This document shows, in pieces, positions 1,127 through 6,486 of a stretch of DNA of 8,569 nucleotides. Made by a program: the position numbers and the translations under genes. The notes under the pieces are model-generated. The model did not search any database. It was not told the origin of the DNA and worked only from the letters and a program-made list of their open reading frames with translations. This DNA comes from an uncultured Lachnospiraceae bacterium. GTDB lineage: Bacteria > Bacillota_A > Clostridia > Lachnospirales > Lachnospiraceae. The stretch's first letter is position 1. Each line of letters begins with the position of its first letter. The DNA lies in the NCBI GenBank assembly GCA_946621895.1, contig CAMOOZ010000144.1:1-8569 (forward strand), read 5' to 3'.

Positions 1127-2380
1127 TTATTCTGTATAACAGGACAGCGCAGACCGGACCGCCTGCGGGTCAGCTGCAGGCATGCTGCCCTGGGTCATTT
1201 TCGAAGAGCCGCCGCCCTTTGCGCCGAGCTTCTCCCTGAGCAGCTGATCAACGGGCCTTACATCCCGGCGGGCGGAGGCAAGGATATAACGGTTTCCTGT
1301 CTTTTCCCTTAACAGGGCCAGCACAAAGCCCTCCGTCTTTTGCGTCAGGAGATTCACCAGCTCGCGAAGGGAGATCATGGAGATACCCTCTTCCTCAAGC
1401 AGAATATCCTCCTTCGTCTCAGGATAGGCTTTCGCCAGCAGCCGGATGTATTTCTGCTCAATGCCTGCCTTATCCTGCTTTTCCCCTTCAAGCTGGCGCT
1501 GCAGCGCCGTCACGGCCTCCGCCGTCTCCTGCGGCTTTACGGAAAGCAGCCTGCAGATCCTCTCTGTATTATCGCATTTATTCCGGTAATCCGAAAGGGC
1601 TCTTTCCCCGCAGAGCGCATGCAGCCTGATCCCGCCCTTATAATGCTCATGCGCGATGATCCGTAAAAGCCCCACCTCGCCGGTGCGTCTCACATGGGGC
1701 GCGCAGCAGGCGCAGATATCCACCCCCGGGATCGTCACGATCCGGATCGGTCCGTCGATCTCGATCTTGCTGCGGTAATCCAGGGTCTCCAGCACAGCCT
1801 TATCCGGATATTCCGCGGAAACAGGGATGTCCGCCCAGATCGCGCGGTTTGCCTCTGTTTCCAGTAAAAGGATATCCTCATCGGAAAGGAGACCGTCGTA
1901 GTCCATCGTGGTTTCCTTATCGCTTAAGCGAAAGCCCACATTGCGGAAACCGAAGCGCTTTTTCACCAGCCCGGAGAAGATATGCTCGCCGGTGTGCTGC
2001 TGCATTTTGGAAAAACGGAGTGAAAAATCGATCGCCCCTTCCACCTTTTCTCCGGGAGAAAGGGGTTTCTCCAGAAAATGCGTGATCACCCCGTCTTTGA
2101 TCTGCACATCGATGACGGGCAGCCTGCGATCAGGCAGGGGCTTTTCCCCTGCCTGACTGTGATCCGGTGCGCCGCTTTGCGGCACGGCTTCATTTTGCCG
2201 CGCCGGCCATAAAAAGCCGGTGTCCGCGCTCTGCCCTCCCTCCTCCGGGAAAAACAGGGTCTGATCCAGCACCACGCCGTATAACGCCTGGCCCTTCCTG
2301 TTCATTTTTTCGCAGGACACCACCTTCCCCTGAAACGAGGAGGCGTAGGCATCCCGGTCATAAAGCTTTATCGTGTCCAT
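1127..2380 (-). CDS. alaX: Alanyl-tRNA editing protein AlaX, long form with DHHA1-type tail
   Basis: The 417-residue protein matches the free-standing editing domain of alanyl-tRNA synthetase, which hydrolyses Ser-tRNA(Ala) and Gly-tRNA(Ala) in the cytoplasm. In order it shows the N-terminal barrel with FFPEEGGQSADTG (44-55), the zinc motif HTGEH (His129, His133), the second zinc motif CCAPH (Cys225, His229) within VDICACCAPHVRRTGEVG, a helical linker from about 265 to 315, and a DHHA1-like end with GGGSSKMTQG (389-398). This makes it the long AlaX class. All metal ligands are present, so it is probably active. The start is the ATG at 2380, with GAGG 5 bases upstream. The oddity is about 26 extra residues between positions 56 and 88, rich in Pro, Gln and charged residues. 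Other family members have only a short turn there. The extra DNA is a run of hairpins, described as a separate feature. The gene lies 98 bases after the J-domain gene and 29 bases before the epimerase gene. Confidence 0.92.
   Translation of the reverse strand: MDTIKLYDRDAYASSFQGKVVSCEKMNRKGQALYGVVLDQTLFFPEEGGQSADTGFLWPARQNEAVPQSGAPDHSQAGEKPLPDRRLPVIDVQIKDGVITHFLEKPLSPGEKVEGAIDFSLRFSKMQQHTGEHIFSGLVKKRFGFRNVGFRLSDKETTMDYDGLLSDEDILLLETEANRAIWADIPVSAEYPDKAVLETLDYRSKIEIDGPIRIVTIPGVDICACCAPHVRRTGEVGLLRIIAHEHYKGGIRLHALCGERALSDYRNKCDNTERICRLLSVKPQETAEAVTALQRQLEGEKQDKAGIEQKYIRLLAKAYPETKEDILLEEEGISMISLRELVNLLTQKTEGFVLALLREKTGNRYILASARRDVRPVDQLLREKLGAKGGGSSKMTQGSMPAADPQAVRSALSCYTE
2130..2220 (-). repeat. 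Three-hairpin palindromic array inside the alaX coding region
   Basis: Three inverted repeats follow one another within 91 bases of coding DNA. In minus-strand order they are CCGGC/GCCGG (2220-2216 with 2207-2203), a middle hairpin with core GCCGC-AAA-GCGGC (2183-2171) extended by outer CCG/CGG pairs to 2187-2164, and an 11-base perfect stem TCAGGCAGGGG/CCCCTGCCTGA with a 5-base loop (2156-2130). The segment encodes roughly residues 54-84 of AlaX, almost exactly the stretch that the family lacks. Its architecture matches the arrays at 3476-3599 and 6375-6479. The reading frame is kept through it. I interpret it as an inserted palindromic element; the structure is seen, the insertion history is inferred. 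Confidence 0.6.
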
Positions 2381-3422: not shown

Positions 3423-3475
3423 CTTACGCGTGTTGCGATCCGCTTCTTTTCAGTCTTTTTCCTGTTCCGCTTTAT

Positions 3476-3599
3476 GGAAGCGCTGTTCAAAGCGCTTCCC
3501 CCGCCGAATTTTCGCCGCGAAGCGGCAATTACCCTTGAAAATTCGTGCGATCCGCCGGAGGCACTAAGGAAACGCTGATTAAATCAGCGTTTCCTTAGT
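3476..3599 (-). repeat. Three-hairpin array at the end of the DUF5685 gene
   Basis: In minus-strand order the array holds three hairpins. The first is a near-perfect palindrome (3599-3563) with 18-base arms around one central base, the arms containing AACGCTGATT and AATCAGCGTT. The second has 9-base outer arms CGAATTTTC/GAAAATTCG (3545-3537 with 3513-3505) around an inner GCCGC-TTC-GCGGC hairpin (3526-3514). The third is a 9-base perfect stem GGAAGCGCT/AGCGCTTCC with a 6-base loop (3499-3476). The first palindrome supplies the last five codons and the TGA of the DUF5685 gene. No T-tract follows, so it is not a standard terminator. The layout parallels 6375-6479 and 2130-2220. Confidence 0.6.
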
Positions 3600-5228: not shown

Positions 5229-6329
5229 TTAAATGTTTCTCAGTCTGTTTTTCTTCTCCACCTGGCTTAAGACCTGCTCCTTCAGGACAAAATACTTTAA
5301 CAGCAGCTCATTCATCTTCCCCGTCTCCCCGTTGCCATGCTCCATATATTCCCGGAAAAAGATTTTCCAGAAATTCATACAGACCTGACTGGAGAGTCCG
5401 AAGCTTTCCATGCAATAGCCTTCTTTTGTTTTTTCCATGGCTACCAAAGAGGCGAATATTCCCTGTAAATCAAACAGGCCATGCCCTCTTGCGCTGCCTG
5501 CCATATCAAAGAGCACAAGCTCTCCGTCCCTTACCAAAACGCTGTTCAGACTGATATCTCCGTGTACATAATTTCCCCGGTCAGCCACTGTCTCAATGAG
5601 CTGGGAGAAAACGGCAGTCTGGGCATTGCCCTCATCCCCGATCTGCCTGATCCACTCCCTGTAGCGCTCCTTGATATCCGGCAGACTGCCCTCCTGAATC
5701 TCCGTGCTGTGAATATCCAGCAGCAGCTTTGCAAAGAGGCCCGCCAGGGAGGGAAGCCTGTCCGGCTCATCCTTCAACACCGCGGCAAGGCTCTTTGCCC
5801 CCGCCCACTCATAGACGATGCCATAGCCGTTCTCTGTCTGCACCACATCATAGGGAATCAAAGTAGGAATTCCTGCCACCATGGCAGTCTGGGCGTATTT
5901 ACGTTCCAGCTTAATGTCGGAAAGGGGAATGTCCGGCCCGTAGACCTTGACCATTTCCTCATCGGAAAGGGCGAAGAACTCCCCGTTTAAGCCTGAGCTG
6001 AGCTTTTTGCAGCCGTTAAGGCTTATCCGGCGCATGGTGCGCTCCACCTCCAGCACATCTGTAAAGCCGGTGACGGAAAAAATATCAAATACCTCATCGG
6101 ACACATTAAAGATCCTGACCGGTTTCTTCTGCGTTTTCCGCAGATTTAACAGAACCCTTAACCCGGCGCTGGAGATATACTGCAGCTTGCCTGCGTCCAG
6201 CGCCACCTCCACCTGGTCATACAGGGAAAGCTCCTCCAGTAATTCCTTTTCCAGCGCAGGGGCATTGGTGCCGTCAATCCTCCCCTCCAGGGGAAAATGC
6301 AGTGTTCCGTTGATAAACTTTCCTTTCAT
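5229..6329 (-). CDS. STAS domain fused to an aminoglycoside-phosphotransferase-type kinase domain
   Basis: The 366-residue protein joins two domains. Residues 1-100 form a STAS (anti-sigma-factor antagonist) domain with EGRIDGTNAPALEKEL, LDAGKLQYISSAGLRVLL (Ser53-Ser54 at the usual phosphorylation site, but Ala at 55) and DIFSVTGF. Residues 101-366 resemble the phosphotransferase family PF01636, close to the group modelled as TIGR02172: SSGLNGEFF as a degenerate nucleotide loop, Lys128 in MVKVYGP, the catalytic YVHGDISLNSVLV (Asp258, Asn262) and the metal-binding FDMAG (Asp275). The kinase residues look intact, so small-molecule or protein phosphorylation is plausible; the substrate is unknown, and antibiotic resistance is not implied. 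The fusion suggests partner-switching-type control, with the STAS part as sensor or substrate of the kinase (inference). The start at 6329 has AAGGA 5 bases upstream. It opens the three-gene packed run with DUF2225 and DUF5685, and follows typA after a 157-base hairpin-rich spacer. Confidence 0.82.
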   Translation of the reverse strand: MKGKFINGTLHFPLEGRIDGTNAPALEKELLEELSLYDQVEVALDAGKLQYISSAGLRVLLNLRKTQKKPVRIFNVSDEVFDIFSVTGFTDVLEVERTMRRISLNGCKKLSSGLNGEFFALSDEEMVKVYGPDIPLSDIKLERKYAQTAMVAGIPTLIPYDVVQTENGYGIVYEWAGAKSLAAVLKDEPDRLPSLAGLFAKLLLDIHSTEIQEGSLPDIKERYREWIRQIGDEGNAQTAVFSQLIETVADRGNYVHGDISLNSVLVRDGELVLFDMAGSARGHGLFDLQGIFASLVAMEKTKEGYCMESFGLSSQVCMNFWKIFFREYMEHGNGETGKMNELLLKYFVLKEQVLSQVEKKNRLRNI

Positions 6330-6354
6330 ATTTTCCTTCCCTGCTTTCTCTCAT

Positions 6355-6479
6355 GCTGCGAAGCGGCAGCCAAAGGCATATCGGCGAATGCCGATATGCC
6401 GATTGGAACAGTGCAATTTGGGCCGCTTTCGCGGATCAAATTGCGGTCAGGGAAAATCAGCTGTCGAGCTGATTTTTCC
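6355..6479 (-). repeat. Hairpin array between typA and the STAS-kinase gene
   Basis: Most of this 157-base spacer is palindromic. In minus-strand order the hairpins are as follows. First, arms AAAATCAGCT/AGCTGATTTT with a 4-base loop, extended by GG/CC past a one-base bulge (6479-6451). Second, outer arms GCAATTTG/CAAATTGC (6444-6437 with 6420-6413) around an inner CCGC-GAAA-GCGG. Third, an 11-base perfect stem GGCATATCGGC/GCCGATATGCC with a 4-base loop (6400-6375). A fourth, weaker hairpin GCTGC/GCAGC lies at 6370-6355. The first begins 7 bases after the typA stop and could end typA transcription, though CC, not a T-tract, follows it. The first three match the order and architecture of 3476-3599. 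Confidence 0.6.
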
Positions 6480-6486
6480 TGCTTCC

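Follow-up and report, generated by a model that had tools for sequence, protein, structure and literature searches.

An in-frame 81-bp palindromic insert in a Lachnospiraceae alaX gene, akin to intergenic hairpin repeats of a genus-mate

In Rickettsia, short palindromic repeats of 105–146 bp, the RPEs, are found intergenically as well as in frame within genes for conserved proteins, where the added peptide is tolerated and, in the case of gmk, the product is active (PMC2229807, PMC10969869, both as excerpted). Two MITEs, ERIC and the 107-bp Correia element, are likewise joined to genes in frame in some instances (PMC2229807, PMC10969869), and a table in PMC2229807 lists both with terminal inverted repeats and target duplications. 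CIRs, made of separate hairpins with the two ends unpaired, are reported in the same source as not found intragenically. Stem-loop families of bacteria in general are the topic of PMC1590033 and PMC2267715. The Firmicutes families treated in PMC2267715 (e.g., Clot-1, C. tetani) are dispersed structured intergenic repeats of low-GC Gram-positives, and the excerpt available of that paper notes no Lachnospiraceae genome. Judged by title and the start of the abstract, the literature found on palindromic, MITE or REP repeats contains no account of such elements from Lachnospiraceae.

The DNA considered here, hereafter the window, is a stretch of 8,569 nucleotides from an uncultured Lachnospiraceae bacterium. 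It contains alaX (1127–2380, minus strand), an ORF for an alanyl-tRNA editing protein of the AlaX / AlaRS C-terminal type with 417 residues, which matches Pfam tRNA_SAD above the cut-off and the NCBIfam AlaRS and AlaXM models below their curated cut-offs. Scoring of 7998 candidates gave 4960 significant homologues, at the top of which stands P0001 (390 residues, source 'ena'), apparently from nearly the same strain. With a net 27 extra residues of the window protein set aside, 384 of 390 residues are identical and 6 are substituted. The extra tract lies between GGQSADTGFL and VIDVQIKDG. An earlier note, made from the letters alone, had pointed to about 26 additional residues at this place; the tract is real and the reading frame is kept across it, as that note had held, while the count comes to 27 whole codons.

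Homologues of AlaX are mostly short here, again in agreement with what had been expected of the family. Counted from GGQ to MQQHxGEH, 118 of the 120 listed homologues have 59 residues and the two others have 84 and 86, the latter being also the value for the window; across genome loci the spacing is 57–67 residues in 68 of 72. These relatives come largely from Blautia and other Lachnospiraceae, and the record of P0004 carries the name Lachnospiraceae. The gap predicted for an orthologue alignment is thus seen, also against P0001, and the 27 residues are not common to orthologues. In two homologues, P0005 and P0012, the same site holds a long tract of a different sequence. The four long alaX loci (L044–L047) have their extra residues further on, at a place different from that of the window; in these four Lachnospiraceae MAGs the insertion in the protein is charged and some two dozen residues long.

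The nearest relative in our collection, G001, is the 2.0-Mb draft genome behind locus L001 (TypA 93% identical) and the sole member of its genus there. By eye, the three genes in a row up to alaX are the same as in the window, and its alaX has the short turn. Copy numbers and gene contexts of repeats in G001 below refer to 140 of its contigs, about 1.2 Mb.

At the DNA level, a segment of 31 codons in the window (2117–2209, minus strand) stands opposite four codons of P0001 (GSMS), flanked in both proteins by FL and V. Five neighbouring codon positions accommodate the gap with equal mismatch, and the placement 2129–2209 is the one that agrees with the ends (ATC...CCA) of a G001 repeat family, E1, described below; this agreement is consistent with exact borders at 2129–2209 and does not amount to independent proof of them. 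So placed, the insert measures 81 bp or 27 codons (WPARQNEAVPQSGAPDHSQAGEKPLPD on the minus strand), and its plus strand has the orientation of E1. Five of the six substitutions with respect to P0001 adjoin it, which could reflect indel-linked mutation, imprecise loss or a replaced tract.

The insert is strongly structured. Hairpin 1 (2130–2156, plus strand) is a perfect 11-bp stem in which 2130–2140 pairs with 2146–2156 (11 of 11 positions) around a loop of 5. Hairpin 2 (2164–2206, plus strand) has outer arms at 2164–2170 and 2200–2206 that enclose an inner hairpin at 2171–2183 (GCCGC-TTT-GCGGC), and the stretch 2184–2199 on its 3' side corresponds to a bulge in E1. Of the chain of three hairpins proposed in the earlier note, the perfect stem thus stands, whereas the best structure of the insert alone has two members, one hairpin (2130–2156) and one nested asymmetric hairpin (2164–2206). 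A weaker alternative pairing with arms at 2185–2200 and 2204–2219 is 75% complementary and extends into native alaX. The segment 2130–2220 folds at −49.5 kcal/mol (z −4.99), and none of 200 dinucleotide shuffles does as well. In 1.1 Mb of predicted genes (those of the fetched part of G001 and of the window), perfect stems of at least 10 bp lying at least 60 nt inside a gene number nine, that of alaX included, with a mean of 3.6 in five codon shuffles. Perfect stems of 15 bp (L190:1999-2034) and 10 bp (L278:1651-1674) well inside predicted G001 genes may be further genic elements or chance. Rfam gives no match in the window at gathering score, the best for the insert being 22.2 of the 70.4 bits needed, and on five G001 contigs it finds Clostridiales-1 RNA alone.

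The genome of G001 is rich in dispersed intergenic hairpin repeats, and several of its contigs start or finish in them. Two families also have a copy in the window. Family B is a three-hairpin intergenic repeat (3472–3598, plus strand; alignment A3), of which the fetched part of G001 holds 22 copies or fragments, one in a weak predicted ORF (score 11). Family C is an intergenic hairpin chain (6346–6486, plus strand) with 31 copies or fragments there, none inside a gene and some overlapping a predicted gene end by at most 22 nt. The third family, E1, was found because the inner hairpin of the insert recurred in it. Six G001 copies of E1 pass a profile search, none of which overlaps a predicted gene, and the E1 consensus, like the insert, consists of two independent hairpins with unpaired ends. 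After masking of B and C, 52 intergenic regions of G001 are still linked by shared repeats (e.g., L231:2251-2618, L184:1-883 and L177:9000-9822), and those inspected are hairpin-rich. A G001 hairpin at L273:107-131 was considered as a related element and set aside, since by eye it resembles a terminator after another gene. Elsewhere in the window, at 5229–6329, a STAS domain and an APH-like kinase domain form a fusion, beside which lies a DUF2225 protein.

The covariance-model search suggested in the earlier note was carried out with G001 copies only. The model R1 was built from six E1 copies of G001, with no window sequence, and was scored at every position of the window (its E values are roughly calibrated). 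Two full-length matches are clear: repeat B at 3469–3559, where the first two of its three hairpins match R1, with 36.4 bits, and the insert at 2123–2218 (plus strand; model positions 1–102 of 102) with 25.7 bits and an E value of 5.2e-5 for the window; the next, at 13.0 bits and E 0.041, is the reverse strand of the insert. A repeat related to the insert is found in the window itself, and others in the genus-mate. Repeat C, the negative control, scores at most 4.2 bits. The insert as a member of family C was rejected, there being no nhmmer match at E up to 10 and R1, the E1 model, not scoring on C. The match of the insert to E1 covers the order of the hairpins, their orientation and the one-sided bulge. 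Part of its 25.7 bits comes from the native flanks, since 2126–2209 by itself scores 13.8 bits.

In 99 of the 140 G001 contigs (944 kb), ten R1 matches reach at least 25.7 bits: five copies used to build the model, one more E1-like copy and four copies of B. None of the ten falls within a predicted gene. Leaving E1 and B aside, the highest-scoring match has 20.5 bits and lies on the contig of L273, in a gene which we take to be dgt-like, with no insertion visible by eye. A mixed model of E1 and B, R2, scores the insert at 16.9 bits (E 0.011), less than it gives two partial matches, both to one hairpin of B, and a sequence-only profile of E1 misses it, with partial matches of 0.5–0.6 bits on the wrong strand. 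Covariation is weak in E1 alone (4 of 28 pairs, reached by 40 of 500 shuffles); in an E1 and B alignment of 18 matches fitted to the model structure it extends to 22 of 28 pairs, which none of 500 shuffles reaches. Counts of G-U against A-C pairs, compared to tell RNA from DNA structure, are 8 to 15 in alignment A6, 12 to 1 in B and 31 to 5 in C, the last two on RNA-folded alignments.

Because of the 16.9 bits of R2 and the 13.8 bits of R1 without flanks, the similarity of the insert alone was examined separately. The insert was aligned end to end with seven E1 copies of G001 (the six of R1 and that of L184) and compared with shuffles that keep base pairs and composition: it reaches z 6.05, with none of 2000 shuffles as good, as against z 0.44 for its reverse strand. 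Under the same procedure the core of repeat B gives z 3.53, and of four C stretches the end of C on the minus strand gives 3.77 and the others 1.1–1.7. A further comparison drew on 304 hairpin-rich controls, that is, 152 intergenic 81-mers of G001 on both strands that fold at −28 kcal/mol or lower. None reaches the insert (best score 20.8 vs 34.3, best z 4.37 vs 6.05), which itself folds at −47.4, more strongly than the listed controls. These similarity tests are not blind, since E1 was chosen after the fact, by way of the inner hairpin of the insert.

We consider it probable that an E1-type paired-hairpin palindromic intergenic repeat of 81 bp was inserted into alaX in frame and added 27 residues to its product. 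That the tract is an insertion, as had been proposed before, agrees both with P0001, which is without the 27 residues, and with the recovery of the insert by a model from the genus-mate, where the similarity goes beyond shared palindromy. The element would have come to lie antisense to alaX, with the frame kept and no stop codon brought in. It would have moved as DNA, presumably mobilised in trans by an enzyme, to a site beside an A-rich TAA tract, and a turn of the editing protein would so have gained 27 residues. The five substitutions beside the insert are not accounted for by a clean insertion, and no near-identical source copy was seen in the genomes of relatives that were searched.

Alternatively, the hairpins could have arisen in place, by template switching or by duplication followed by quasi-palindrome correction, their likeness to E1 being that of any two GC-rich hairpin chains. 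By eye, 11-nt imperfect direct repeats flank hairpin 1 (CTGCGATCAGG / CTGTGATCCGG), and the R2 score is equivocal, both of which would suit such an origin. However, the similarity to E1 outlasts the shuffles that keep the hairpins as well as the 304 controls, and the order, orientation and one-sided bulge agree with those of E1; we regard an origin in place as improbable.

The composition of the insert bears on its age. Its in-frame coding log-ratio of −2.93 is lower than in any of the other 337 windows of 27 codons in alaX, and among 12,586 windows in G001 genes 99.7% score higher. The insert is thus non-coding in composition and, given that P0001 is nearly identical, seems to be non-coding DNA that arrived recently. 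An older, lineage-specific extension of the loop that was imprecisely deleted in P0001 would fit the long tracts of P0005 and P0012 at the same place, as well as the GSMSV of P0001, which departs from the DG(I/V)PV of P0002 and P0003 more than the LPV of the window does. It is hard to reconcile with the non-coding composition, the perfect stem and the 118 of 120 listed homologues without extra length, and is very unlikely. A metagenomic misassembly or chimera at a repeat, for which one may cite that G001 contigs start or finish in such repeats and that these hence break assemblies, is very improbable too, as both flanks of alaX stand in one frame with 384 of 390 residues matching P0001, and a chimera would need to have joined two parts of one gene without a frameshift.

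For the insertion of an E1-type element, some features of the site can be compared with the copies in G001. On the plus strand, the insert is directly followed by TAAAAAGCC, an A-rich TAA tract. Four of the seven E1 copies are followed by TAACAAAAGGC, TAAACAGAAG, TAAAAAAGGC and TAAGAAAGGC, ahead of terminator-like hairpins, and the other three have no TAA after the copy. This may hint that E1-type elements have some preference for TAA with an A-rich tract. By eye, neither the E1 copies nor the insert show a target duplication. REP and BIME elements consist of separate hairpins without end pairing, and REPs are thought to be moved by RAYT transposases of the Y1 type. Such a mobilisation was considered here and is unsupported, and E1 differs from REP in this respect: of 17 genomes searched, 8 are without a Y1_Tnp (PF01797) match, namely G001, itself a draft MAG, and 7 of the remaining 16 (G146, G120 and G260 among the eight). 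Viral contigs contain no match to P0001 and no exact copy of hairpin 1, and the plasmid collection gives a single match of 113 nt, in a part of alaX other than the insert.

The repeats extend to other genomes of the family. At E up to 0.001, R1 has matches in 30 of 299 family genomes, G001 included, and in 1 of 291 genomes of a class-wide sample, again G001 (13 candidates scored per genome, strict filters). The element class is therefore real, and as far as these samples show it is concentrated in the family. By blastn with 2 candidates scored in each genome, family B matches 20 of the 299 family genomes, and in 6 of them the match spans most of the element. The insert itself, at E up to 0.1 and with the same number of candidates, has matches in 61, none longer than 46 nt, and 3 matches in G001, the longest of 25 nt. 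R2 has matches in 15 of 17 genomes (G001 and 16 chosen for B matches), with up to 39 per genome. Across 71 loci of other genomes (1.25 Mb), the sole R1 match with E up to 5 has 19.1 bits; a set of 37 loci of other genomes gives five, two of them above 25.7 bits (L089, L124). Among the 20 places with B matches in L080–L099, 17 lack a spanning ORF of 120 codons and 3 have one, the latter with no Pfam match better than E 0.26. The B copy of L089 sits between two other ORFs, and those of L092 and L095 may lie in a gene or between genes. Tandem R1 matches about 120–126 bp apart occur at G251:C6:198020-198359, G251:C1:1029678-1030003 and G020:C97:76709-76922.

The site of insertion in AlaX is probably a surface turn: in an alignment with the homologous solved protein 3kew, the conserved blocks that flank the site are joined by the short stretch GQMGDLGLIDGIKVLDV. 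The insert-bearing AlaX may still work; in Rickettsia, the RPE-bearing guanylate kinase is active with a changed substrate affinity (PMC2229807, as excerpted).

How does this element compare with the described systems? With RPEs it shares the position in frame within a conserved protein gene, and the two are likened by effect, not by sequence. The insert has only 81 bp, consists of two independent hairpins with unpaired ends and belongs to another phylum; moreover, it is one genic case against some 59 copies or fragments of E1, B and C in the examined part of G001, none of which lies in a convincing gene. Since genic insertion does not recur in that part of G001 and the ends are unpaired, we do not class the element as an RPE. 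With ERIC and Correia it has in common the in-frame fusion of a repeat with a gene, whereas the terminal inverted repeats and target duplications listed for these MITEs in PMC2229807 are not recognised in it. Separate hairpins with two unpaired ends are also a feature of CIR, from which the insert differs by its place inside a gene. The Firmicutes stem-loop families resemble E1 as dispersed structured intergenic repeats; PMC2267715, as excerpted, names no Lachnospiraceae genome among their hosts. E1-type repeats are a new family of an already known kind, in a group for which no such report was found.

Rickettsia is the best-known source of palindromic inserts that lie in frame within conserved genes, and ERIC and Correia provide cases elsewhere (PMC2229807, PMC10969869, as excerpted). 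A case outside these groups, for which a near-identical allele without the insert is at hand, offers a testable instance of non-coding DNA becoming protein. Whether Lachnospiraceae harbour family-specific and still mobile paired-hairpin DNA elements that, in the manner of RPEs, can turn non-coding palindromes into new protein segments, with alaX polymorphic between near-identical strains as a result, we regard as an even call. The finding points to a class of hairpin repeats spread over one bacterial family.
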